The notes under the pieces were generated by a model that worked only from the letters and a program-made list of their open reading frames with translations, had not been told where the DNA came from and ran no database searches. A stretch of DNA of 37,783 nucleotides. Origin: an uncultured Bacteroidales bacterium (GTDB lineage Bacteria; Bacteroidota; Bacteroidia; Bacteroidales; Bacteroidaceae). This document shows, in pieces, positions 2,999-37,370 of this stretch. The translations under genes were made by a program, and so were the position numbers. Each line of letters begins with the position of its first letter. The first letter of the stretch is position 1. The stretch lies in contig CACXUA010000004.1 of the NCBI GenBank assembly GCA_902770725.1, positions 1-37,783 on the forward strand. Reading direction: 5' to 3'.

Positions 2999-4702
2999 AT
3001 GTTTCGCTTTGAAAGTCCACAATATTTGTACTTGTTGTTAGTGCTCGTGGCACTGGCCGCTATACATTATTATATTATATATAGGAAGAAGCAACAGGTG
3101 AAACGCTTCGGCGACCCTGAGCTGACCAGGCAACTCTTCCTTGGTGTTTCGCGTTGGAGGCCTGAGGTGAAGTTCTGGATAACGATGCTTGCCCTCGCAT
3201 CCTTCATGGTCGCGTTGGCTCGTCCGCAGTTCGGAACTCGCCTCGACACACGTGAACGCACTGGCATTGAGGCAATTATCGCGCTCGATGTCAGCAATTC
3301 GATGCTTGCCGAAGACGTGAAGCCCAACCGTTTGGAGAAAGCGAAGATGATGGTCAGCAACATGGTGGACGGCATGAGGGACGACAAGATCGGCCTGATT
3401 GTCTTTGCCGGCCAGGCCTTCGTGCAGTTGCCCATTACCAGCGATTACGTGAGTGCCAAGATGTTCCTCGAGACCATCTCGCCTTCGATGATGAGTGTTC
3501 AGGGCACAGACATCGCGGAAGCCATCAACCTCTCGATGCGCAGCTTTACTCAGCAAGAAGACGTCTCAAGAGCCATCTTTGTGATAACCGATGGTGAGGA
3601 CAACGAGGCGAGAGGCGTCGAGGCTGCGAAACAGGCTGCTTCAAAAGGCGTCCGCGTTTATGTTTTGGGCATCGGCAATCCTGGCGGAGCACCCATTCCC
3701 ATCCCAGGCACCGGCCAGTACATCATCGACGACGAGGGCAACACGGTCGTTTCGAGGTTGAGCGAGGAGATGTGTCGCGAGATAGCGACGGCCGGAAACG
3801 GCTCCTACATCTACGTTGACAACAGCAGTTCGGCTCAGAAGAAGTTGTCGGAGCAGGTTGACCGACTGGCCAAAGCTAAGATGGAGAGCCAGATCTACAG
3901 CGAATATGACGAGCAGTTCCAGGGTTTCGTCCTCATCGGCATCCTGCTTTTGCTGCTCGACGTCTTCCTCCTCGAAAGGGAAAGCAAATCGACTTGGCTC
4001 AGCAACCTCTTCCACAGAGGACGTCCAGTTGCTGCACTCTTCCTGTTGATTTTCAGCATGACGGCAATGGCTCAGACCGACAGAGACTATATTCGCCGCG
4101 GCAATCGCCTGATGCGCGACAGCGTTTACGACAAGGCTCAGGTCGAATATCAGAAGGCAATCGAGAAGGACAACACGAATCCCATCTCGCACTTCAACCT
4201 CGGAAACGCTCTTCTCTATCAGAACAAAGCTGAAGACGCCATGAAGGAGTATGAAACGGCGGCTCGATTGGAGAAGGACAAGACGCGTCTGGCTCAGATT
4301 TATCACAATATGGGCGTCGTCCTGCAAAGTGCCAAGCAGTTCGATAAGGCAGTAGCATGTTACAGGAACTCCCTGCGAAACGACCCGACTAACGATGAGA
4401 CGCGCTATAACTACGCTTTGAGTCTCTTCCAACTTAAAAAGAATCAGGGAGGTCAGGACAATCAGGATCAGCAGAAGGACGACAAGGGTCAGGACGAGAA
4501 GAAAGAGCAAGAACAGCAGCAACAGAAACAAGAACAAGATAAGAAAGACGAGCAGCAGCAACAACCTCAGCCAGAGCAAATGAGTCGCGAAAACGCCGAA
4601 CAGATGCTGAATGCCGCGATGCAGGACGAGAAAGCTACTCAGGAAAAGATTCAAAAAGCACAACAAAAACGTCAGCAAAAACAGTTGCAAAAACAATGGT
4701 AA
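2999..4702 (+). CDS. batB: Fused BatB-BatC (VWA domain plus TPR domain)
   Basis: The product is 567 aa. Residues 1-330 are BatB: two N-terminal membrane segments (about 8-27 and 58-75), VWA motifs DVSNS at 97-101, T170 and TDGED at 197-201, and a membrane segment at 307-325. Residues 341-358 look like a former signal peptide (RPVAALFLLIFSMTAMAQ), after which TPR repeats run to about 477, as in BatC. A low-complexity Gln/Lys/Glu/Asp tail fills 480-530, with a basic helical end. BatB and BatC are usually described as separate genes; here the reading frame is continuous. The buried signal sequence would act as a fourth membrane segment and put the TPR domain back in the periplasm, on the same side as the VWA domain. 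No frameshift or internal stop is visible. Confidence 0.9.
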   Translation: MFRFESPQYLYLLLVLVALAAIHYYIIYRKKQQVKRFGDPELTRQLFLGVSRWRPEVKFWITMLALASFMVALARPQFGTRLDTRERTGIEAIIALDVSNSMLAEDVKPNRLEKAKMMVSNMVDGMRDDKIGLIVFAGQAFVQLPITSDYVSAKMFLETISPSMMSVQGTDIAEAINLSMRSFTQQEDVSRAIFVITDGEDNEARGVEAAKQAASKGVRVYVLGIGNPGGAPIPIPGTGQYIIDDEGNTVVSRLSEEMCREIATAGNGSYIYVDNSSSAQKKLSEQVDRLAKAKMESQIYSEYDEQFQGFVLIGILLLLLDVFLLERESKSTWLSNLFHRGRPVAALFLLIFSMTAMAQTDRDYIRRGNRLMRDSVYDKAQVEYQKAIEKDNTNPISHFNLGNALLYQNKAEDAMKEYETAARLEKDKTRLAQIYHNMGVVLQSAKQFDKAVACYRNSLRNDPTNDETRYNYALSLFQLKKNQGGQDNQDQQKDDKGQDEKKEQEQQQQKQEQDKKDEQQQQPQPEQMSRENAEQMLNAAMQDEKATQEKIQKAQQKRQQKQLQKQW

Positions 4703-4728
4703 AACGTGGCAGTTCAAAACTACTGCAG

Positions 4729-4828
4729 TGAAGTTGCCAAAGTTCACACGTGAAGTTGCCCAACTTCACACGTTAACTTTGCAAACTTCACACGTGAAGT
4801 TTACCAACTATCCACGTTAAGTTGAAAG
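4729..4828. repeat. 22-bp tandem array of alternating inverted arms (array 1)
   Basis: Four full units (4729-4750, 4751-4772, 4773-4794, 4795-4816) and a partial fifth (4817-4828) repeat with an exact 22-bp period. Each unit is TGAAGTT-like arm, 4-nt GCCC-like loop, AACTTC-like arm, then an ACACG-like spacer. The arms of one unit are complementary (GAAGTT with AACTTC), and each arm is also complementary to the arm across the spacer, so dyad centres recur about every 11 bp. The array fills most of the 138-bp gap between batBC and batD, starting 26 nt after the batBC stop. Three other arrays in the window share this layout. Confidence 0.85.
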
Positions 4829-4840
4829 AGACTCCATAAG

Positions 4841-6685
4841 ATGAAAAGACTTTACACGATACTCACTCTCCTAATTCTTGCGTTAAGTCCTGTCTTTCCG
4901 CAAGTTACACTTAAAGTTCAGGCTCCTTCCCAAGCCGAAGTAGGCCAAAGAATCCGCATCAGTTATGTGGCCAATACGCAGGACATCGAAGACTTCCAGG
5001 TCGGCAACTTCGAGGGCTTCAACGTCCTTTATGGTCCCAGCACCAGTCGATCGAGCAACATCTCGATTATGAACGGTCGCACAACCCAGAGTAGTACGGT
5101 AACCTTTACTTATACCGTTGTACCCACTTCTGAAGGGACTCTCAAGGTGCCTGCAGCAACCATCAAGGTCGATGGAAAGTCCGTCAAGAGCGGCACAGCC
5201 AGCATCGAAGTGTTGCCAGCAAGTCAGCAACATAGTCAGCAACCTCAGAACCAACAGCAAGGTGGCAATCCTCGCCAAGGGCGTCAGCAACAGAGCGCTG
5301 CCAGCTCAGGTCAGATAAGCGGAAGCGACCTCTACATGAGCGTTACAGCTAACCGTAAAAAGATTTATGAACAGGAGGCTGTGATGCTGACTTACAAACT
5401 CTACACGCTGGTGAACATCCAACAAATCTCTGGCGATATGCCTCAGATAGACGGTTGTCACGTTCAGGAACTCGAGCGTTCTGCACAAATGTCACTCAAG
5501 TACGAACGCGTCAACGGCAGGAATTACGGCACGGCCGTCTGGAAGCAATACGTCGTTTTCCCGCAGAAGACGGGCAAGATAAAGATTCCCAGCATCACAT
5601 TCGACACGCAAGTCGAGGTGCAGAACCACTCGATGGACCCCTTCGACATCTTCTTCGGCGGAGGAAGTCTCTCGCAAATGGTTCGCAAACAAATCGTCGC
5701 TCCGGCTGTTGAGATTGACGTAATGCCCCTCCCAACGCCGAAGCCCGACAACTTCTCAGGTGCCGTCGGTAAGTTCACGGTGTCTGCCACTTTGACGCCA
5801 GACCAGGTGAATGCCAACGATGCTGCAACCCTTCGACTCGTCGTCTCAGGTCAGGGCAACATGAAACTCATGAAGGCCCCGACTGTTCGATTCCCTCAGG
5901 ACTTCGAAGTCTATGACCCCAAGGAGAACAACAAGACGACAAATACATCGACAGGAGCAAAGGGAAACATCATTTACGACTATGTCGTAGTACCCCGTCA
6001 CGGCGGAAAATTCTCGATTCCACCGGTTGAATTCTGCTATTTCGACCCAGAACAGGAACGTTACAATACAGTTCGAACAGACTCTTTCCACCTTGCTGTT
6101 GCCAAAGCAAAAGGTCAACCTGTCGCCTACACCCGTGAGCAAGAAGATCTTAACGTGCTGAGTAATGACATTCGCTTTATCAAGTTGGGCGAATACACCA
6201 GCGAGGACGAGGATGACTTCTTTGGAACTTCCTCATATTGGGTCACTTATCTGCTCCTCTTCCTTGCCTTTATCGTTGCCTTCCTTTGGTTGAGACATCA
6301 GCAGAAACTCAATCCGAACTCATGGAGCGTGAAGGGAAAGAAGGCCGGCAAAGTGGCATCTCGCCGACTGAAACAGGCTTCGAAACTTATGCACGCCAAG
6401 GACGATGCCGCTTTCTACGACGAAGTGATGCGCGCGCTGCTCGGTTATGCCGGCGACAAGTTGTCCCTCCCGACCAATGAACTCAACAAGGAGAACGTCA
6501 TTTCTGGCCTCACATCGAGAGGAGTGGAACAGGAAGTTGTCGATTCCTTCATTGCAGTCTTGAGCGATTGCGAGTTCGCTCGATATGCTCCGACTGCCGA
6601 TGCGAACCTTGCAAAAGAGAAGATATATCAGCAGGCTTCAGATGTGATTACGCAGATGAACGCTTCGCTCAAGTCACATAAATAA
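4841..6685 (+). CDS. batD: BatD, oxygen-tolerance membrane protein
   Basis: The product is 614 aa. A signal peptide covers about residues 1-20 (cleavage near VFPQ). The next 440 residues are extracytoplasmic and beta-rich, starting with the [15 protein letters not shown] segment typical of BatD, with a Gln-rich linker ([13 protein letters not shown]) near residue 130 and tandem Ig-like parts after it. One membrane segment lies at about 463-485 ([18 protein letters not shown]), followed by a cytoplasmic helical domain of about 120 residues. BatD is thought to contact the BatA/BatB VWA proteins through its periplasmic part. It lies between batBC and batE, with only 13 nt to batE, which fits the family order. 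Length is in the normal range. Confidence 0.9.
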
Positions 6686-7454: not shown

Positions 7455-7487
7455 GGTTAAATACACCATCCATTCAAGATATATCAG

Positions 7488-11683: not shown

Positions 11684-12227
11684 CGAGCGCAACTTTGTTA
11701 TCCTGCTAGTGCTGGCATTTTTGCTGCCGATTCTCTCGTGGGCATTGTCGGCATTGGGAGTGCCTTGCAGAAGCATTCTCGACGATGAGGGCTTGCGTTG
11801 GCTTTTCCGTCACGTTAGCGATTGCCTTCACAGTAGGTTGGTGATGTTTGCGCTTTGTTGTCTGATGATGCAAGGGGTGATAAAGGAGAGTGGCATACTT
11901 CCACTCGGCCGAGCATTTCGCGACCTGAAATTCCTGCGATACCTCGCTGTCTATGCGGTTGTGTTCCTTACGATACTCTTTGCTGCAATTGCGCCTGATA
12001 GCCCTTTGTTGAGCGTAACAGGTGGTCTTGCCGGGAGTCCTTTGCTCGACGGCTTGCTCTTCCTCGGCTGGTTCTCTTTCATCGTGTTCTGCCTCTGCTA
12101 CGGTCACAATAAACGTGAGCCTTGGCCTCAGATGCTAACACACGGAATTCGGAAACATCCGCTCGCGATACCTTTCGCTATTGTTGTTTCTTTTTGTTGG
12201 CAGTGCATTCAATATATGATAGGATGA
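11673..12227 (+). CDS. Small membrane protein, possible AbgT-transporter remnant
   Basis: I chose the ATG at 11673 (184 aa) over an in-frame TTG at 11667. The start overlaps the end of the response regulator, and the TGA stop overlaps the ATG of the helicase gene (ATGA), suggesting coupled translation. Four or five membrane segments are visible. The segments LSWALSALGVPC, DDEGLRWLF and QGVIKESGIL recall the second and third membrane regions of AbgT-family p-aminobenzoyl-glutamate transporters, and LLSVTGGLAGSPL fits the same family, but the protein is much shorter than the roughly 500 residues of AbgT. It could be a shortened family member or an unrelated membrane protein. Certainty on family is low. 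Confidence 0.75.
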   Translation: MNNNERNFVILLVLAFLLPILSWALSALGVPCRSILDDEGLRWLFRHVSDCLHSRLVMFALCCLMMQGVIKESGILPLGRAFRDLKFLRYLAVYAVVFLTILFAAIAPDSPLLSVTGGLAGSPLLDGLLFLGWFSFIVFCLCYGHNKREPWPQMLTHGIRKHPLAIPFAIVVSFCWQCIQYMIG

Positions 12228-14503
12228 ACCTCGACGACCTCAATCCCAGTCAGCGTGAAGCGGTGCTTTGCATCGATGCTCCTTCTCTCGTGATAGCGGG
12301 AGCGGGTAGTGGTAAGACGCGTGTCCTGACCTACAAGATTGCGTATCTTTTGGAGCAAGGGATGCAGCCTTGGAACATCCTTGCGCTGACCTTTACCAAT
12401 AAGGCTGCACGTGAGATGCGCGAGCGCATTGCCTCACTTGTTTCGCCCGAGAAGGCTGCAGCACTTTGGATGGGCACGTTCCATAGTATTTTCGCCAAGA
12501 TACTTCGTGTTGAAGGCAATCGCTTGGGCTACGACCAGAACTATACTATCTACGATACCAACGATAGTCTGAGCCTCATTAAACTTGTTATTCGCGAGAT
12601 GAATCTCGACGATAAGGTCTATAAGCCAGGTGCTGTCCAGAATCGTATTTCTACAGCAAAGAATCGACTCGTTTTACCCGTGAATTATGCTTCTGTGCGA
12701 GAGTTCCGCGAAAGTGATGCTTACTATCATCGTACGCTGATGCACGAGGTCTATAATCGCTATGAGGAGCGTTTGAAGCAGTCAAACGCCATGGACTTCG
12801 ATGATTTGCTGCTCAACACTTGGCTCATATTCAAGCACAATCCTGAGGTTGCAGCGCACTGGCAAGAACGTTTCCATTTTGTGCTTGTCGATGAGTATCA
12901 GGATACAAACTTTGCTCAGCATCAGATAATTAAACTTCTCACAGACCAGCGGCAGCGTGTCTGTGTTGTTGGCGACGACGCGCAGAGTATTTATAGTTTC
13001 CGAGGGGCGGACATTGACAACATCCTGCATTTCCGCGAGGCTTATCCGGGAGCCCGACTCTTCAAACTCGAACGCAATTATCGCTCTACACAGACTATTG
13101 TGAATGCTGCTGGGAGCTTGATTCGCAACAATCGAGAGCAGATTTCGAAGAGTGTCTTCAGCGAGAAAGAGGTGGGAAATCCTATTGCTCTCTTCTCTGC
13201 TTATAGCGACACAGACGAAGCCAACATTATCCTCAGAGAAGTGCAGCGAGCTCATCGGGCAGGCATTCCATATAAAGGGATTGCTGTCCTTTACCGCACC
13301 AACGCCCAGAGCCGCAAGATAGAGGACAGTTTCCTGCAAGGGCGCATTCCCTATCACATCTATGCAGGCACGTCGTTCTATCAGCGCGAGGAAATCAAAG
13401 ATATGCTTTGCTACCTGCGACTCTCGGTCAATCCTTACGACGAAGAATCGTTGCGACGAATCATCAATAAGCCTGCTCGAGGCATTGGTGATACTACCGT
13501 CGGAAAACTTTTCCTCGAAGCAAGAACAGCTGGCCAACCTGTTTGGGATATCCTCAAGGCAGGAACCTGTCCAGGCCTCAATAGCAGTACGCAGGCTCGA
13601 CTGAAGACGTTCTACGAAATGATAGAAGCCTTCCGTCAAAGTGCTGCAACCGACGATGCCTATACGCTTGCTCTTCGTGTGGCGAAGGAGAGCGGACTGC
13701 AGGACCATTACTTCAGCGGACACGAGCCCGACGACATCTCGAAACAGGAAAATTTCCAGGAAATGCTCGATGGAATCGCGGTTTTTGTGCAAGATAACCG
13801 CGAGCAAGGACTTGGAGTTTCTATCAGCGATTACCTACAAATGGCGAGCCTCGCAACAGACTTCGACCGCAATAATGCGGAGAAAGATGCCGACCAAGTG
13901 AACATGATGACCATTCATTCTGCAAAGGGACTGGAGTTTCCCGTTGTGTTCATTACAGGCTTGGAGGAGGGATTGTTTCCCAGCGAAATGAGTGCCGAAG
14001 TGCCTCGCGAACTGGAGGAAGAGCGTCGTCTCTTCTATGTTGCCCTGACCCGAGCCGAACGTCAGGTTGTCCTCACCTATGCCAAGTCGCGTTTCCGCAA
14101 CGGCAGGATGGAGTTCTCTCGCCCCAGTAGGTTCGTAAGAGAGATTCCGCAAGAGTATTATAGGACTTCACCTCAAACCTCTTCTCAAGGGGAGAGACAT
14201 ACTGGATTTACCTCGCCACGCATAGAACAGCGGATGAGACCTGCTTTTCGTCCTGCCTCTCGCCCTGACTTGGCTCCAAGCAGACCATTTGTTGGTGGTC
14301 AGTCAGCCTCGCCAAGTTCAGGCACTGGGGGAACTATGATGCACGATTTGAAGGTTGGTACTGCTGTTCTTCACGAGCGCTTCGGCAGAGGCGTTGTACA
14401 GGCTCTCGAGGGCTCTGGCATTGATGCGAAGGCGACTGTCTGCTTCGAGAATGCCGGTACAAAAGTCCTGATGCTGCGTTTTGCCAAGCTCACTTTGCAA
14501 TAG
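12224..14503 (+). CDS. UvrD/PcrA-type superfamily 1 DNA helicase
   Basis: The ATG at 12224 gives 759 aa starting MNLDDLNPSQREAV, the standard PcrA/UvrD start (Q motif). A longer frame opening at 12122 lies inside the previous gene and is rejected. Visible motifs are Walker A GAGSGKT (26-32), TFTNKAAREM (Ia), the Walker B DEYQDTN (near 222), DDAQSIYSFRGA (III), LERNYRS (IV), MTIHSAKGLEFPVVF (V) and FYVALTRA (VI). A Pro/Ser-rich linker then leads to a C-terminal Tudor-like domain (HDLKVGTAVLHERFGRGVV), typical of PcrA. The enzyme is a 3'-5' ATP-dependent DNA translocase in repair and replication-transcription conflict. The start overlaps the stop of the upstream membrane-protein gene. Whether to call it uvrD or pcrA cannot be settled from sequence alone. 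Confidence 0.95.
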   Translation: MNLDDLNPSQREAVLCIDAPSLVIAGAGSGKTRVLTYKIAYLLEQGMQPWNILALTFTNKAAREMRERIASLVSPEKAAALWMGTFHSIFAKILRVEGNRLGYDQNYTIYDTNDSLSLIKLVIREMNLDDKVYKPGAVQNRISTAKNRLVLPVNYASVREFRESDAYYHRTLMHEVYNRYEERLKQSNAMDFDDLLLNTWLIFKHNPEVAAHWQERFHFVLVDEYQDTNFAQHQIIKLLTDQRQRVCVVGDDAQSIYSFRGADIDNILHFREAYPGARLFKLERNYRSTQTIVNAAGSLIRNNREQISKSVFSEKEVGNPIALFSAYSDTDEANIILREVQRAHRAGIPYKGIAVLYRTNAQSRKIEDSFLQGRIPYHIYAGTSFYQREEIKDMLCYLRLSVNPYDEESLRRIINKPARGIGDTTVGKLFLEARTAGQPVWDILKAGTCPGLNSSTQARLKTFYEMIEAFRQSAATDDAYTLALRVAKESGLQDHYFSGHEPDDISKQENFQEMLDGIAVFVQDNREQGLGVSISDYLQMASLATDFDRNNAEKDADQVNMMTIHSAKGLEFPVVFITGLEEGLFPSEMSAEVPRELEEERRLFYVALTRAERQVVLTYAKSRFRNGRMEFSRPSRFVREIPQEYYRTSPQTSSQGERHTGFTSPRIEQRMRPAFRPASRPDLAPSRPFVGGQSASPSSGTGGTMMHDLKVGTAVLHERFGRGVVQALEGSGIDAKATVCFENAGTKVLMLRFAKLTLQ
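14169..14199. repeat. Possible decayed CCTC/GAGG hairpin element inside the helicase linker
   Basis: Within the linker-coding part of the helicase gene, CACCTCAAACCTCTTCTC followed by AAGGGGAGAGAC looks like a degenerate copy of the element at 20709-20730 (CCCCTCTCC ... GGAGAGGGG with a CCTCACCCCC arm). It is in frame and encodes TSPQTSSQGERH in a region that varies freely in this family. This is a resemblance judged by eye. Confidence 0.3.
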
Positions 14504-14571: not shown

Positions 14572-14637
14572 CCACGTCAACTTACCCAACGACCTACGTT
14601 TCAATGCCTCACGAAACATGTTTCATTGACCAACATA
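14572..14637. repeat. 22-bp array, degenerate copy (array 4)
   Basis: Three units of exactly 22 bp (14572-14593, 14594-14615, 14616-14637) share the template CCACGT, NNANTT, NCC, NAAC seen in array 1. Complementarity inside each unit is partly lost, but dyads persist across unit joins: TTGACG/CGTCAA around the first unit and GAAAC-AT-GTTTC between the second and third. The array sits between the 3' ends of the convergent helicase and lipoprotein genes. Confidence 0.6.
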
Positions 14638-14658
14638 GCACACCATTGTCTAGAGATA

Positions 14659-15225: not shown

Positions 15226-16558
15226 CGTTCGCAAGTTTCTTTTCCGCTTCTTCTGCTTTCTCGAAGTGGAAGTTGTTCCAAGTCTGCTCGAAGAGTACGG
15301 CAATCTCCTTTGTGCAGAGGTTGCCGATGCTGCCTTCGTGGGTGTGATGGACTTCCTTCTTCGGCACGAACTTCCCAGCCTCAATGTCCAGTCCTACCTT
15401 CTTGTAGGCGTCGCGGAATGGCATCCTTTCGGCAGCCAAACGGTTGACTTCCTCAACGGAGAACATCAGGTCGTAGCGTGGGTCGTCGAGGATGTGCTCG
15501 TTCACCTCGAGCCGAGCGATGATGTAGGTGGCCATCTGCAGGCAGTCACGCAGTTCCTGGAAGGCGGGCAGGAAGACTTCCTTGATGATTTGCAGATCGC
15601 GGAAGTAACCGCTGGGCAGGTTGTTCATAATGAGCGTAACCTGCTGGGGCAGAGCTTGGAGCTTGTTGCATTTGGCGCGAGTCAGCTCGAAGACGTCGGG
15701 GTTCTTCTTGTGCGGCATGATGCTGGAACCGGTTGTGCACTCCTTCGGCAACTTGATGAAACCGAAGTTCTGGCTGTTGAAGAGGCAGGCATCGAAAGCA
15801 AGCTTGCTGACGGTTCCTGCTATTCCTGCCAAGGCGAAAGCTACGTTGCGCTCAGTCTTGCCGCGTCCCATCTGAGCATAAACGACGTTATAGTCAAGGG
15901 AGTCGAAGCCAAGAAGTTCTGTCGTCATCGTCCTGTTCAACGGGAACGACGAACCATAACCTGCGGCAGAACCGAGAGGATTGCGGTTGGTGATGCGATA
16001 AGCTGCCTGCAGGAACACGAGGTCATCCGCGAGGCTTTCGGCATAGGCACCCAGCCAGAGTCCGAAGCTGCTGGGCATCGCTACTTGCAGATGCGTGTAG
16101 CCAGGCATCAAGACGTCTTTGTATCGTTCGCTCTGCTGCTGTAGTTCGCTAAAGAGACTCCTGACATCCTCTGCCACGAGACGCAGCTGCTTGCGGATGA
16201 AGAGCTTAAGGTCAACCAGCACCTGGTCGTTGCGGCTACGGCCTGAGTGTATCTTCTTGCCGACATCACCCAATCGTCGAGTAAGCATCAACTCGACTTG
16301 CGAGTGTACGTCCTCTATGCCTTCCTCGATGACGAACTTCCCTGCTCGAATGTCTGCAAGGATGTTTCGCAGTTCCGCAAGCAGCGTCTGCAGTTCATCT
16401 TTCTCGAGAAGACCAATGCTCTCGAGCATCGTGATATGTGCCATCGAGCCAAGTACATCTGCTTCTGCCAGGTACATATCCATCTCGCGGTCGCGACCAA
16501 CAGTGAAGCGCTCTATCTCCGCCGTCGGCTCATATCCTTTGTCCCAAAGCTTTGCCAT
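15218..16558 (-). CDS. argH: Argininosuccinate lyase
   Basis: The product is 446 aa, normal for the family. It catalyses cleavage of argininosuccinate to arginine and fumarate, the last step of arginine synthesis, in the cytoplasm as a tetramer. Visible features are KIHSGRSRNDQV (102-113), GYTHLQVAMP with the active-site His156, and the fumarase/aspartase-superfamily signature TGSSIMPHKKNP (276-287), whose Ser is the catalytic residue of the mobile loop. The start is 10 nt after the stop of the SRPBCC gene. The 3' end overlaps the lipoprotein start. No other arginine gene lies nearby. Confidence 0.97.
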   Translation of the reverse strand: MAKLWDKGYEPTAEIERFTVGRDREMDMYLAEADVLGSMAHITMLESIGLLEKDELQTLLAELRNILADIRAGKFVIEEGIEDVHSQVELMLTRRLGDVGKKIHSGRSRNDQVLVDLKLFIRKQLRLVAEDVRSLFSELQQQSERYKDVLMPGYTHLQVAMPSSFGLWLGAYAESLADDLVFLQAAYRITNRNPLGSAAGYGSSFPLNRTMTTELLGFDSLDYNVVYAQMGRGKTERNVAFALAGIAGTVSKLAFDACLFNSQNFGFIKLPKECTTGSSIMPHKKNPDVFELTRAKCNKLQALPQQVTLIMNNLPSGYFRDLQIIKEVFLPAFQELRDCLQMATYIIARLEVNEHILDDPRYDLMFSVEEVNRLAAERMPFRDAYKKVGLDIEAGKFVPKKEVHHTHEGSIGNLCTKEIAVLFEQTWNNFHFEKAEEAEKKLANDE

Positions 16559-16568
16559 TGTGAGAGTA

Positions 16569-17048
16569 TTAATATGGTAAACTTGCTAACATTTGTGCGA
16601 GGCCATCAACGCCTTGCTCGAGCTTCTTGCCCACCATTTGGCGGATGAAGAAGTTCAGGTCGGCCTTGACGGTAAGACGCATTGCACACTCATTCTCGCT
16701 TTGCGGAAGCAGTTGAATCCACATGTTTGCTGCTACAGGTATCCCTTCGGCAGCAAACTTGATAGTCTTTTCCGGCTCGCGCTCAATGATACGCAATGTG
16801 GCTGTACCAACTGGGGTCTGACCCGAGACGGAATCTGTGTCGAACTGCAACGAGCGCAGCTTCTCGACAACTTGCTCCAGTTGCTCAGGCGAAACCTTAT
16901 CGCCTGCCTGCTGCTTAATGCGCTCCATCGCCTCAGGATTATCGAGCCCTTGCTGAATGACAGCCAGATTGTTGAGGTCTGCCAATCGTTCATAGACGCG
17001 TCCAATAGGAGCGTATATCTTCTTTACTTCGCTTTTGTATTCAGTCAT
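16569..17048 (-). CDS. SRPBCC (START-like) family protein
   Basis: The ATG at 17048 gives 159 aa starting MTEYKSEVKKIYAPIGRVYERLADLNNL, the usual opening of a small START-like, ligand-binding fold in Bacteroidales. An upstream in-frame Met at 17108 overlaps pyrE and is rejected. The pattern of beta strands (TATLRIIEREPEKTIKFAAE, NMWIQLLPQSENECAMRLTVKADL) and a C-terminal helix (VDGLAQMLASLPY) fits the helix-grip fold. No catalytic residues are evident. It lies between pyrE and argH with 10-nt gaps on both sides, so all are likely one transcript. Ligand unknown. Confidence 0.8.
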   Translation of the reverse strand: MTEYKSEVKKIYAPIGRVYERLADLNNLAVIQQGLDNPEAMERIKQQAGDKVSPEQLEQVVEKLRSLQFDTDSVSGQTPVGTATLRIIEREPEKTIKFAAEGIPVAANMWIQLLPQSENECAMRLTVKADLNFFIRQMVGKKLEQGVDGLAQMLASLPY

Positions 17049-22116: not shown

Positions 22117-22395
22117 AAAAATCTATTTTTTTATATATATATTGCGAAAGGTCGAAAAAAGTTGGCGAGATGAGGGCGTAAAGCGACTGAAGAAACGTGC
22201 CGAGATGGTACTCTGATTGAGAATTTTGGTTCCGCGAATCATGATGAGTAAAAAGGTAAAAATGGTCCGATTCGACACTCCTTTTTTTTCGAAATTCTAA
22301 GTTGCTCAGGCAGAGATACTACGCGAAGGGATTTGCATCTACATGTATGTGCAAACAACCCGGCACGCCAGGTTGGGTAACGAGGCAAGAAAAAT
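22117..22395. other. Intergenic DNA without a recognised gene
   Basis: About 280 bp upstream of the promoter above. It starts AT-rich (ATATATATA near 22135) and then becomes GC-mixed. Two small inverted repeats are visible near 22335-22375 (TTTGCAT/TATGTGCAAA and AACC/GGTT around CGGCACGCCA). No convincing ORF, tRNA or promoter was found. Confidence 0.5.
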
Positions 22396-27223: not shown

Positions 27224-27374
27224 ATAATGTGCAGGAATGTTTGAGAGAAAAGAAGAATTGACCCGCTTCTTCTGGCAGAAACTCCTGGATCATGCTGCGG
27301 TTTCAGATATTGCTTTTATGCTCGAAACCTCTTCCAGTACGGGGGAAACCAGTCCTTTTAATGTTAACAAAATA

Positions 27375-27490
27375 GGAGGACTGCAGTCCTCCGAAAATTT
27401 TCCCATAGGAGGACTCGAGTCCCACCACGGTGGGACTGGAGTTTTTCCACGGTGGGACGAGCGTCCTCCCACGGTGGGACTGGTGTCGTA
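27375..27490. repeat. GC-rich 22-bp array of alternating inverted arms (array 3)
   Basis: An 18-bp perfect palindrome (GGAGGACTGCAGTCCTCC, 27375-27392) is followed by four 22-bp units at 27403-27424, 27425-27446, 27447-27468 and 27469-27490. Three units begin CCACGGTGGGAC; the first begins CCATAGGAGGAC. Arms pair both inside units (GGAC-GAGC-GTCC) and across unit joins (GTCCCACC-AC-GGTGGGAC). The period and dyad spacing equal those of arrays 1 and 2, with entirely different arm sequence. It lies 70 nt after the AGCS stop and upstream of the fusion-gene promoter. The rest of the 389-bp gap, apart from the promoter, holds no recognised gene. Confidence 0.8.
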
Positions 27491-27560: not shown

Positions 27561-28979
27561 CTATCGCCAACCCTCAAGGTCAGCATCGGGGAAGAGGTTG
27601 GGGTCGAAAACGGGCTCTTTCCCCTTCTTTCGTTGCTCGCGGAAATCTTTCAGAAGTCGGAAGGCATAGCGACTCAAGAGGCAGACTGCAATGAGGTTGG
27701 TGATGGTCATCAAGGCCATAGCGAGGTCCACAATGCACCAAGCCTGCTGCAGCGACATGAAGCCGCCCATCAGCACTACTGCTCCGCTCATCCACCTGAA
27801 CAGCACCACTGCCCAAGATTTATTGCAGAGGAATCGGACATTCGTTTCGCCATAGAAATAGTTCGCGATGATGGTCGAGTAGGCAAACAGGAATATGGCA
27901 GCTAACAGGAACCAGCCTCCGAAGCGTCCAAGGTGGTGCTCCATCGCATGACCCGTTAGGATGATGCCGTCGCTACCCTCTGTATATAGGCCACTCAGCA
28001 AGATGATGAAGGCTGTGCAAGTGCAGATGATGAGGGTGTCGGTGAAGACTCCCAGACTCTGCAACAGGCCTTGATAGACGGGATGCGGTATTGTTGCAGT
28101 AGCAGCAGCGTTCGGAGCGCTTCCCTCACCTGCTTCGTTCGAGAACAGGCCACGCTTCACGCCTTGCATCACGGCTATTCCAACGGCTCCTCCAGCAGCC
28201 TGCTCCCATCCGAAAGCACTGCGTACGATGAGGCTCAGCATAGCGGGAATCTGCGTGAGGTTCGCGATGAGAATGTAAAGTGCCAGTATGATGTAACCAA
28301 AAGCCATGAAGGGAACAATCATAGCACAAAAGCGAGCTATGCGATGTATGCCGCCAAAGATGATGGCCAGCGTCAGCAAAGTCAGTCCGCCAGCCACATA
28401 TCTCATGGGAATTTGAAAGGCGTCCGAGATGGCGTCGCAAAGGGTGTTGCTCTGCACAATCTGGTTTGAAAGGCCAAAGCCGTAGATGATGAGCACAGCA
28501 AAGAGTGCGCCCATCCACGGACGCTTCAAGCCGTACTTCATATAGTAGGCTGGTCCGCCATAGAAGCTCTCCTTGCCCCTCCGCTTGAAGAGCTGGGCGA
28601 GTGTGGCTTCCATAAAGGCTGTGGAGGCTCCCAACAAAGCCATCACCCACATCCAGAACACGGCTCCAGGACCTCCCACGAAGATAGCGCTCGCCACACC
28701 AGCCAAGTTGCCCGTCCCCACTCTCGAGGAAAGACTGATGGCAAAGGCTTGGAAAGAGGAAATCTTACGCTTGCCGATGCTCTCGATAGGCTGGTCGCTT
28801 GGCTTGAAGAGGTTGCGCAACATCGTTGGCAACATAGTGAACTGCACGCCACGCAGGTTCCAAGTGAAGTAAAGCGCGCAGCCCACCAGCATCGAGATAA
28901 CGATGTAGGTCCACAGCCAATCACTTATCGAAGTGATGATGTCAAACCGTATAAATTCCAGATTAAAGATGTCTTCCAT
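27561..28979 (-). CDS. AGCS family sodium:alanine/glycine symporter
   Basis: The product is 472 aa with about ten to eleven membrane segments. Family features are the SSRVGTGNLAGVASAIFVGGPGAVFWMW region, the segment FMEATLAQLFKRRG followed by GGPAYYMKYG, the GVKRGLFSNEAGEGSAPNAAA signature and a final membrane region (LAMALMTITNLIAVCLL). AGCS carriers import alanine, glycine or related amino acids with Na+; the exact substrate cannot be told from sequence. The C terminus is short and charged. The gene stands alone: the next gene upstream on this strand ends 102 bp away, and no clear TAnnTTTG promoter was found in that gap. Confidence 0.93.
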   Translation of the reverse strand: MEDIFNLEFIRFDIITSISDWLWTYIVISMLVGCALYFTWNLRGVQFTMLPTMLRNLFKPSDQPIESIGKRKISSFQAFAISLSSRVGTGNLAGVASAIFVGGPGAVFWMWVMALLGASTAFMEATLAQLFKRRGKESFYGGPAYYMKYGLKRPWMGALFAVLIIYGFGLSNQIVQSNTLCDAISDAFQIPMRYVAGGLTLLTLAIIFGGIHRIARFCAMIVPFMAFGYIILALYILIANLTQIPAMLSLIVRSAFGWEQAAGGAVGIAVMQGVKRGLFSNEAGEGSAPNAAATATIPHPVYQGLLQSLGVFTDTLIICTCTAFIILLSGLYTEGSDGIILTGHAMEHHLGRFGGWFLLAAIFLFAYSTIIANYFYGETNVRFLCNKSWAVVLFRWMSGAVVLMGGFMSLQQAWCIVDLAMALMTITNLIAVCLLSRYAFRLLKDFREQRKKGKEPVFDPNLFPDADLEGWR

Positions 28980-29081
28980 GTCAACTCAATAACTATGAAC
29001 TATACACTAGCACTATAAACTATGAATTATGAATTGTGAAGCAAAGCTCGACGAATGTCAATTATGAATTATGAATGAAGG
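28980..29081. repeat. AT-rich AACTATGAATTATGAATT-type spacer
   Basis: The 102-bp gap holds loosely repeated ACTATGAA, ACTATAAA, AATTATGAATT and similar words, a simple-sequence spacer seen often in Bacteroidota. No gene or clear promoter is visible in it. Confidence 0.4.
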
Positions 29082-32118: not shown

Positions 32119-32142
32119 TGGAGAATGTTCAAACTAAGTGTG

Positions 32143-32242
32143 GTTAAATCGCAAACTTAACGTGTGAAGTTTGCAAAGTTAACGTGTTAAGTTGACGAAG
32201 TTAACACGTTAAGTTGGGCAAGTTAACGTGCCTAGTTTTGAG
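32143..32242. repeat. 22-bp tandem array of alternating inverted arms (array 2)
   Basis: Units at 32143-32164 (degenerate), 32165-32186, 32187-32208 and 32209-32230, plus a partial unit to 32242, have an exact 22-bp period. Each has TTAAGTT- or TGAAGTT-like and AAGTTAAC-like parts with an ACGTG or ACACG spacer. They align base for base in phase with array 1, from which they are separated by 27 kb. The array begins 16 nt after the plsC stop (minus strand) and ends upstream of the next promoter. Confidence 0.85.
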
Positions 32243-32258
32243 AGATGACGTGACGTCC

Positions 32259-33017
32259 CTATTGATCAGGGTTGGCGACGAAGCCCTGATACTGTGCTGG
32301 GAGGTCGTTCATAATGATTTCGTAGCTTTTCTCAAGGGTGTGCTGAATGTCTTCCGGACCTCTGCTTTCTGGTGAAAGAGGGGCATGAATGACGAGACGA
32401 AGCCTGTGCCAAGTAACAAAGTTGATGCCTTTCTGACGAGGAAGAACATCGAAACTGCCGTCAATCGTCACAGGAACAACAGGAAGTTGCAGTTCGTCAG
32501 CCAGTCCGAAAGCACCTCTGCGAAACTTTGCCATATGCCCGGTAAAGGTTCGCGAGCCCTCAGGAAAGACCACGAGTGAAACACCGTTCTGCAAGACTTT
32601 CCGTCCCTGTTCGTACGTTTTATGTATGGCTTTTGGACCACTCTTATCGACAAAGATGTGGCCTGCACTCTCGCAAGCTTTCCCCACAAGCGGAATGTTG
32701 CGAAGACTCTTCTTCATCATCCAGCGGAAACTGCGTCCCAAAAAGCCGTAGATGAGGAAGATGTCGTAGGGCCCTTGATGGTTGGCAACGAAGACGTAGG
32801 ACTGCTTCTTGTCCAGGAGTTCTCGTCCCTCGACTTTAACAGGCAAGAGCATCACCCAGCACATCAACCTGCTCCAAACCATAGCAGGATAATAACCCCA
32901 GGTTCTCGCCTTTCCCAATGTGCAACCGATGATGGTGACAATAGCCGTCGTAGCTGTTGTCAGGATGATGATAGGCAGGGCGATTAGGAGTTGGTAAAGT
33001 CTGTAAAGAAATTTCAT
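32259..33017 (-). CDS. plsC: 1-acyl-glycerol-3-phosphate acyltransferase (PlsC family)
   Basis: I chose the ATG at 33017 (252 aa, MKFLYRLYQLLIALPI), which places an N-terminal membrane segment first; the longer frame to 33080 overlaps the upstream gene and adds a Lys/Arg-rich stretch without support. The acyltransferase motifs are NHQGPYD (His80 and Asp85 of HX4D) and FPEGSRT (151-157). The enzyme adds an acyl chain to lysophosphatidic acid at the inner membrane in phospholipid synthesis. It starts 4 nt after the DUF4369 lipoprotein stop, so both are read from the promoter near 33750. Confidence 0.92.
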   Translation of the reverse strand: MKFLYRLYQLLIALPIIILTTATTAIVTIIGCTLGKARTWGYYPAMVWSRLMCWVMLLPVKVEGRELLDKKQSYVFVANHQGPYDIFLIYGFLGRSFRWMMKKSLRNIPLVGKACESAGHIFVDKSGPKAIHKTYEQGRKVLQNGVSLVVFPEGSRTFTGHMAKFRRGAFGLADELQLPVVPVTIDGSFDVLPRQKGINFVTWHRLRLVIHAPLSPESRGPEDIQHTLEKSYEIIMNDLPAQYQGFVANPDQ

Positions 33018-33021
33018 GGTA

Positions 33022-33720
33022 TCAGTACTCCTTCGCTTTTTCTTGGTATTCTTTCGCTTTCTTAATGTATTCCTTGACATAAGGATGTCCCAGGAAATAT
33101 GGAGGAGCGTTCGTAATGATTTCTTCGAGTTGTGGTGTGAGGACGGGGTAGGGCAGGCCGCTGGTCAGAATCATGAAGATGCCTGGCCCTAATACGTTAT
33201 TATAATTCGCGCGTATGAAGTGTGTGATGAGCTGGTCGTTTTCTTCAGCCAACTGCTTCGACTGTTTGCCCAGTTCGAACAACCTCTCGTCGTCGTCCGT
33301 TCCGTTCATGATCATCTGTGCCTCGAGGTGAGGTAACTCGGCCATTCTGGCATCGAGTTGTGTCTTGCGTTGAATGAAACCAGAAAGGGTATCGTTGAGG
33401 GGAGTGCCGGTTGCACTTTGTTGTGTCTCGCTGATGTTCAGGTTGACTTCTCCCTCTTCGAGTACGATAGGCATCACGCTCAAGTCCCCAAGAAAGACGT
33501 TTGCCAGCATTGTGGAATCCATGCTGCCACCAAAGTCGAAGCGTCCGTGCACCACTCTTGTCGAGTCTATGCTTTTCATCTCGCCATCTACATAGACCTT
33601 GAGCGTCAACACCTTGCCCTCCAGTTCGTCCACATTCGAGGAACCTCTCACCATATACTGGCTCTTGCAAGATATCAACGCCAGCAAAGACGTCAAAAGC
33701 AGATAGAGGGACTTGTTCAT
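33022..33720 (-). CDS. DUF4369-type lipoprotein
   Basis: The product is 232 aa. A lipoprotein signal ends LLALISCKS, with the lipidated Cys near residue 18. The beta-rich part (about 25-105: GSSNVDELEGKVLTLKVYVDGEMKSIDSTRV, then GRFDFGG and LEEGEVNLNI) is the DUF4369 domain usually found in front of a thioredoxin-like domain in Bacteroidales. Here a helical region (LDARMAELPHLEAQM) follows and the thioredoxin fold is missing. The C terminus has a tandem AKEYQEKAKEY. It is the first gene of a two-gene unit with plsC. The function is unknown. Confidence 0.82.
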   Translation of the reverse strand: MNKSLYLLLTSLLALISCKSQYMVRGSSNVDELEGKVLTLKVYVDGEMKSIDSTRVVHGRFDFGGSMDSTMLANVFLGDLSVMPIVLEEGEVNLNISETQQSATGTPLNDTLSGFIQRKTQLDARMAELPHLEAQMIMNGTDDDERLFELGKQSKQLAEENDQLITHFIRANYNNVLGPGIFMILTSGLPYPVLTPQLEEIITNAPPYFLGHPYVKEYIKKAKEYQEKAKEY

Positions 33721-37332: not shown

Positions 37333-37342
37333 CGAAGAATAA

Positions 37343-37370
37343 GTGAAAAGTGAAAAGTGAAAAGTGAAAA
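37343..37370. repeat. Four tandem copies of GTGAAAA
   Basis: A perfect 7-bp repeat, four copies, lies where the upstream part of the metY promoter should be. Changes in copy number would alter promoter spacing. Confidence 0.8.

Follow-up and report, generated by a model that had tools for sequence, protein, structure and literature searches.

The window, the whole stretch of DNA analysed here (37,783 nt on contig CACXUA010000004.1 of assembly GCA_902770725.1), comes from a rumen bacterium of the uncultured Bacteroidales and contains five places occupied by 22-bp palindromic units. Array 1 (4716..4825) consists of five in-phase 22-bp quasi-palindromic units of the AAC type, the first with a CTGCAG core and the subsequent ones mostly with CACG. 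It takes up most of the gap between a batC-like gene (VWA + TPR; 2999..4702, plus strand) and batD (4841..6685, plus strand), within a run of bat genes, and ends 16 nt before the batD ATG. Array 2 (about 14573..14638) is a weak or decayed three-unit array that follows a gene for a uvrD-family helicase (12122..14503, plus strand). Array 3 (27350..27483) is a dispersed element bounded by CAGTCC...GGACTGG, its internal palindromes phased at 22 bp; the 3' end of a sodium:alanine symporter gene (27561..28979, minus strand) is directed toward it. Array 4 (32130..32239), again five AAC-type 22-bp units in phase, lies about 20 nt past the stop of a minus-strand acyltransferase gene (32259..33080). The fifth place (22333..22376), absent from the preliminary description of this DNA, holds one TTGCA-type palindrome and, after it in the same phase, a single AAC-type unit.

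The first four had been grouped as one family because they share a period of 22 bp, and on that basis the grouping stands: arrays 1, 3 and 4 were recovered at our strict threshold for lag-22 self-similarity (at least 28 matches in 44), and array 2 only at a laxer one (26/44), at which lags 17, 19, 20, 23, 25 and 26 yielded no region within the window. Short tandem repeats with a period of 7 bp are also present, at 2958-2991, 28991-29076 and 37341-37370.

Abundance of the 22-bp period and its position behind genes

In a sample of 824,541 bp, or 37% of the source genome (G000; completeness 80.6%), the strict threshold returned 103 regions at lag 22, together with smaller numbers at the multiples of three (12 at lag 18, 11 at lag 21 and 8 at lag 24) and none at lags 19, 20, 23, 25 or 26. 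At 26/44 there were 118 regions at lag 22, with 1, 0, 6, 5, 3 and 1 at lags 17, 19, 20, 23, 25 and 26, respectively. Tandem Repeats Finder (TRF) reported period 22 in 63 of its 143 rows over 424,541 bp and not a single row, of any period, on one first-order Markov random copy. The two findings named beforehand as fatal to the idea, that the genome holds only these four arrays or that random sequence is equally periodic, are thus clearly contradicted. The phenomenon is genuine and much larger in scale than the four arrays of the window: extrapolation to the whole genome gives roughly 280 lag-22 regions, so that 22-bp arrays probably occupy hundreds of intergenic places, often just past a gene end. 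Array length has a median of 96 bp (10th-90th percentile, 73-146). Separately, period 7 accounted for 31 TRF rows in the 424,541 bp, and lag 7 was raised in those co-directional and divergent gaps that hold no 22-bp array. At L013:12560-16970, several differing 22-bp-phased arrays, some with no clear dyads, are clustered in long gaps devoid of called genes.

The arrays were placed relative to genes with our own codon-based gene caller. Fifty-one of the 103 lie between co-directional genes, 25 between convergent and 15 between divergent ones; 9 lie at the edge of a stretch and 3 within called genes. Among gaps of 60-600 bp, arrays were found in 42 of 134 co-directional, 19 of 39 convergent and 6 of 52 divergent cases, corresponding to about.31 (co-directional) and.24 (convergent) arrays per gene 3' end. 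Distance to the upstream stop could be compared for the 33 co-directional arrays (of 51) that occupy gaps of 150-600 bp; 30 of the 33 are closer to the upstream stop, at a median of 17 nt as against 154 nt, which bears out the location behind stop codons first noticed in the window. With a simpler gene caller the stop bias was weaker (38/56 in G000, 18/34 in relatives of the same clade and 8/11 elsewhere); in the clade relatives, arrays between batC and batD often fill the entire gap. Gaps without arrays showed no clear excess at lag 22. The GC3 of 59 genes with an array behind them did not differ from that of 185 others (.651 vs.635, p.30), and there is therefore no sign of a link to expression.

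Unit anatomy and element families

Each unit in G000 is a 22-bp quasi-palindrome, usually centred on CACG or CGTG. The CACG motif, initially described as a spacer, is where the better dyad is centred. A YRYR core, mostly CGTG/CACG or CATG, occupies the stronger dyad at 194 of at least 279 sites; for the weaker dyad the count is 99 of at least 239. The commonest half-unit is YMAAC-NN-RRCR. In the commonest (AAC) type, the outer AA/TT blocks are conserved and the middle positions variable. By our own extension rule, 49 of 53 AAC-type arrays have 4-7 units, and CACG/CGTG forms the core of 141 of 185 interior and 51 of 106 terminal units, the latter also using CTGC, CAGG and CTAG. A dyad statistic applied to the G000 arrays exceeded the 95th percentile of a column-permuted control in 48 of 103, and the best dyad fraction fell below.5 in 29 of 103.

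Half-units were compared in 73 of the 103 arrays, the 29 below a dyad fraction of.5 and one with an even centre being left out. Within arrays, identity was.746 at a distance of one unit,.63 across the inner dyad,.616 across the outer dyad and.60-.63 across the next dyads; between arrays it averaged.42, so that a single conserved repeat sequence is not the pattern present. Neighbour-specific coupling at half-unit positions 5-8 was detected across the inner dyad (.569 vs.541; 0/500 permutations) and not across the outer (.527 vs.533; 375/500). Over all 11 positions the corresponding figures were 9/500 and 48/500, with position 1 alone standing out at the outer dyad, and the outer dyad is accordingly unsupported as a second functional centre. 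Dyads do recur about every 11 bp, as was originally reported, but they are not an independent feature: the intermediate dyad is largely a by-product of tandem repetition and arises mainly because a 22-bp palindrome is repeated without a spacer. The GC profile has components of.86 at 11 bp,.89 at 22 bp and 1.42 at 2.75 bp. Distances between dissimilar palindromes were given no weight as evidence: 18 of 22 pairs in G000 lie at multiples of 11 bp, 11 of those 18 at 33, 55 or 77 bp, values that the inner and outer dyads of one array already yield, and only 1 of 5 pairs in relatives lies at such a multiple.

Several families can be told apart by their palindromes. Those of the TTAAAT type occur as three in-phase copies, with differing linkers, at all seven places found by pattern, all of them in G000. 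For the TTGCA type, whose units avoid perfect palindromes, 11 of 15 rows hold three copies; several of the rows are orthologues or contig overlaps and hence not independent. The remaining four comprise two that, judged by eye, have three copies with variant units (L095 and L112), one that lies at a contig end, and the lone unit of the window. By eye, elements of both types are mostly flanked by AAC-type units. Array 3 was aligned with the six next-best of about a dozen places in the genome. The flanks are unrelated and the number of internal units is equal; the ends resemble CAGTCC...GGACTGG, the left one being absent from one of the seven aligned copies (C6), and neither an empty site nor a target duplication was seen among the seven. 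The dispersed elements measure about 110-134 bp. A role as mobile palindromic elements, one of those suggested at the outset, is thus supported for several families by the dispersed copies of array 3 and of the TTAAAT and TTGCA types. A transposase of the RAYT type was rejected as the mobiliser: the Y1 domain PF01797, matched in 12 of 25 genomes searched, had no match in the sequence of G000 (80.6% complete) or of the close species G005 (89%), both genomes being incomplete.

These observations bear on a very unlikely reading, in which the arrays are pure slippage minisatellites (VNTRs) and the dyads are incidental products of template switching in quasi-palindromes. The excess of direct identity at 22 bp over inverted identity (.746 vs.63), the weakness of the inner-dyad coupling and the 22- or 44-bp differences between orthologues described below all speak for it. 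Slippage alone should generate many period lengths, yet lags 19, 20, 23, 25 and 26 are empty in G000; nor does it account for the constancy of three units in the TTAAAT family despite differing linkers, for the constant unit number in the seven aligned copies of array 3, or for the avoidance of perfect palindromes by TTGCA units.

Orthologous loci and spread across genomes

The gap between batC and batD was compared at 22 loci. Its length is 6 mod 22 in 15 of them (94-182 bp) with differing unit sequences: 138 bp in nine, 94 bp in two (94 bp at L063), 182 bp in two, and 116 and 160 bp in one each. The loci are related and so do not represent 15 independent events, and one of them (L082) is too degenerate to count as an array. 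Three loci carry arrays of 137, 159 and 162 bp, and four have no array (gaps of 5, 22, 38 and 136 bp). Units change in concert, and parts of both flanks are recognisable in many loci. The assertion that spacing is retained while arm sequence changes is therefore well founded at this locus. Array 1 itself has one 22-bp unit fewer in RUG606. On the 3' side of uvrD, 15 of 26 loci score 28/44 or better in the 230 nt past the stop, three score 26 (the window, L059 and L080) and eight of the loci compared have no period; the genes downstream of uvrD vary among relatives. The array after uvrD at L080:12319-12459 has a period of 23 bp rather than 22.

G000 and G005 were paired only where both 400-bp flanks of an array were present in the G005 sample, which left 13 places. 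Two arrays are of equal length, three (array 1 included) differ by exactly one unit and one differs by 44 bp with some scrambling. Two have been swapped for another family: at L025:14779 a GGCACGCC-type array is replaced by a CCCTATAGGG-type one and the flanks are similar right up to the array, and at L022:12145 the array is likewise exchanged and about 60 bp beside it differ too. The remaining five pairs are partial or ambiguous matches. Because the genomes are metagenome-assembled, assembly error is possible in these comparisons, though the arrays are short. Two further differences were noted in a close relative: AT-rich repeats resembling ATTCATAATT (about 107 bp; L059:14437-14545, against window 16558-16569) are missing from the window, as are about 737 bp between batE and a histidine-kinase gene (L059:4636-5372, against window 7461-7487).

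The period extends to other genomes. G005 has 49 lag-22 regions in 430,805 non-N bases, with 12 at lag 21, 11 at lag 18 and 2 each at lags 19, 23 and 24. Rumen relatives (L060-L084; 478,173 bp) have 54 at lag 22, 17 at lag 21 and 2 at lag 23. In other genera of the same family, represented by 13 stretches picked regardless of any match (L200-L212; 241,294 bp), nine lag-22 regions were found in four stretches, as compared with three at lag 21, one at lag 18 and none at lags 17, 19, 20 or 23-26. Their unit sequences are unlike those described here, and several, for instance in L202 and L206, look palindromic by eye. Four further unselected stretches of the same genus gave six lag-22 regions in three of them; three stretches chosen for a match to array 1 (L213, L214 and L219) were left out of the other-genera count. 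In a survey of 20 stretches, nine hold 14 lag-22 regions. Across 319,667 bp from sixteen genomes of other families there are three lag-22 regions, confined to two AT-rich stretches (L145 and L149), and the seven loci L087-L093 (124,598 bp) have one, array-like in look, in L090.

One reading of these patterns, possible yet on balance doubtful, is that the arrays are selfish satellite- or MITE-like elements without a host role, spreading by transposition and tolerated mainly behind genes, in which gain, loss and exchange all reuse the 22-bp register. It would accommodate the alignment of array 3 with six other loci of unrelated flanks, the dispersal of the TTAAAT and TTGCA elements, the gain, loss and exchange of units between close species, and the absence of arrays from some loci (4 of 22 at batC-batD and 8 of 26 at uvrD). 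Unless all derive from one ancestral satellite, it leaves unexplained why families with unrelated sequences keep exactly 22 bp, why the median distance to the upstream stop is 17 nt in long co-directional gaps, and why period 22 recurs in several genera.

A DNA constraint, its nearest known counterparts and a putative reader

A role as RNA 3' structures, with hairpin arrays terminating transcription or protecting mRNA ends, had also been put forward for the window; we regard it as unlikely. The arrays sit behind stops, and they fold better than dinucleotide shuffles (mean z of -3.05 in co-directional, -4.00 in convergent and -2.11 in divergent gaps). In addition, HMP2_4205, a 132-bp candidate described as lying near TPR genes (PMC8040213), can be likened by description to array 1, which follows a TPR gene. 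Selection for RNA pairing should leave more G.U than A.C mismatches in the sense direction. Sense-strand mismatches in arrays at most 150 nt from the upstream stop were 187 G.T against 222 A.C, although co-directional arrays beyond 150 nt gave 31 against 20. In 33 of the 51 co-directional arrays the antisense strand gives the more stable fold (p.012). Linkers are not complementary across the dyad, neither in the TTAAAT type (.444 vs a null of.450; 9 distinct units) nor in the TTGCA type (.190 vs.356; 21 distinct units). A T4 run lies 3' of 17 and an A4 run 5' of 16 of the 51 co-directional arrays; this symmetry means that there is no directional U-run, and an intrinsic terminator, that is, a hairpin with a sense U-run, was rejected on this count. 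The claim that neither ordinary tandem duplication nor a lone terminator accounts for the arrays holds. The position of array 1 inside the bat gene run, immediately ahead of batD, also speaks against RNA 3' structures, and the Rfam gathering search of the window gave no match. We favour a constraint on the DNA and not on the RNA, because there is no general G.U bias, the sense strand is the less stable, the linkers are non-complementary and the T-runs are symmetric. The letters change from place to place and from one species to another, yet the step of 22 letters is exact; this points to a rule of spacing at the level of the DNA.

Plasmid replication iterons are tandem sites about two helical turns apart (roughly 20-22 bp); unlike them, the present arrays occur at many chromosomal places, are intergenic and palindromic, and vary in sequence. 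Integron attC sites and CRISPR were considered and rejected, because the arrays neighbour housekeeping genes and lack spacers. The nearest known kinds are REP/BIME and BrickBuilt elements. Like the REP/BIME sequences of E. coli and others as portrayed in PMC3733652 and PMC6006769, the arrays are intergenic, palindromic and multicopy, biased toward gene 3' ends and often grouped, and they resemble BIMEs in position and form. They differ in that a single exact phase of 22 bp, with no spacers, is common to many unit sequences, and, in contrast to GTAG-type REPs, in the lack of a PF01797 transposase match in G000 and G005. CGTC-type REPs, according to the same sources, are found in Bacteroidetes too, apparently without a dedicated transposase (PMC3733652/PMC6006769). 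The BrickBuilt MITE of Porphyromonas gingivalis, in the account of PMC4596501, likewise belongs to Bacteroidales, is intergenic, contains a short tandem repeat in an element with inverted ends and varies in unit number between strains. That source describes one family at 19 places with a 23-nt unit, a leader and tail of up to 285 and 318 nt and 1 to 22.8 units (PMC4596501), whereas we see several families, a 22-bp palindromic unit, mostly 4-7 units and no long leader or tail; a BrickBuilt-like 23-nt unit was matched in G000 by no lag-23 region at 28/44 and by five at 26/44. Since each of the two kinds has at least one tested feature that the arrays lack, we do not file them as members of either. 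Palindromic RNA candidates from a survey of the human gut microbiome, most of them predicted terminators (PMC8040213), are also similar by description in being palindromic, about 80-132 bp long and, in several cases, mostly or entirely from Bacteroidetes; they are presented there as RNA, in a description that mentions no 22-bp period. That candidate list may already include some of the present arrays under an RNA reading. Among the matches listed from a search of open-licence PMC texts, no paper described 22-bp palindromic arrays in Bacteroidales, and we make no claim of their absence from print.

What can be stated plainly is that the arrays keep a strict 22-bp phase, are built of quasi-palindromic units with a YRYR core, lie a short way behind stop codons, gain and lose units in steps of 22 bp and can be exchanged whole, in place, for another family. 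The explanation to which we lean, with confidence a little short of an even chance, is that they are non-coding intergenic elements, dispersed throughout the genome and akin in kind to REP/BIME or MITE sequences, in which 22-bp palindromic modules follow one another in phase; they would be retained at gene 3' ends as putative sites for a dimeric, sequence-tolerant protein that binds or bends DNA. Each module would be a site for one protein dimer, which would set neighbouring dimers two helical turns apart on the same face; the proposal made from the window, that a dimeric protein binds a series of sites along one face of the DNA, fits the unit anatomy. The selected feature would be geometry (palindromic contact blocks, a fixed phase and a total of mostly 70-150 bp) rather than sequence, and an array at a gene 3' end might bend the DNA, act on its topology or form a roadblock, much as the gyrase-attracting BIME-2 elements may in E. 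coli. New sequence would enter by transposition or by recombination among arrays that share the phase.

A single strictly sequence-specific protein is unable to read all arrays, given how varied their sequences are; a sequence-tolerant dimeric bender or wrapper could. Gyrase may be one candidate reader in view of array position, length and indirect readout. As reported in PMC6379681, gyrase has a 130-bp motif of phased G/C content that is read indirectly, with enrichment in BIME-2 and behind operons of high transcription; the arrays are comparable in length scale, in their position downstream of genes and possibly in indirect readout. The G/C variation described there (PMC6379681) has a 10-bp period, as opposed to a strict 22 bp with palindromes in the present arrays, and their 11-bp GC component is modest (.86), so that a gyrase-like wrap is not specifically supported.

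More tentatively, the 22-bp ruler could be a family-wide chromosome feature set by geometry, in which palindromic blocks at intervals of two turns behind genes are required by a conserved dimeric protein that tolerates varied sequence, and the sequence itself is freely exchanged through recombination between numerous element families. A class of repeats with an exact phase and replaced sequence would imply that selection on intergenic bacterial DNA can act on spacing alone. Should the arrays have a protein reader, they would form part of a nucleoid or 3'-end system in bacteria that abound in gut and rumen; should they have none, they would offer a clear case of the concerted in-place replacement of bacterial satellites.
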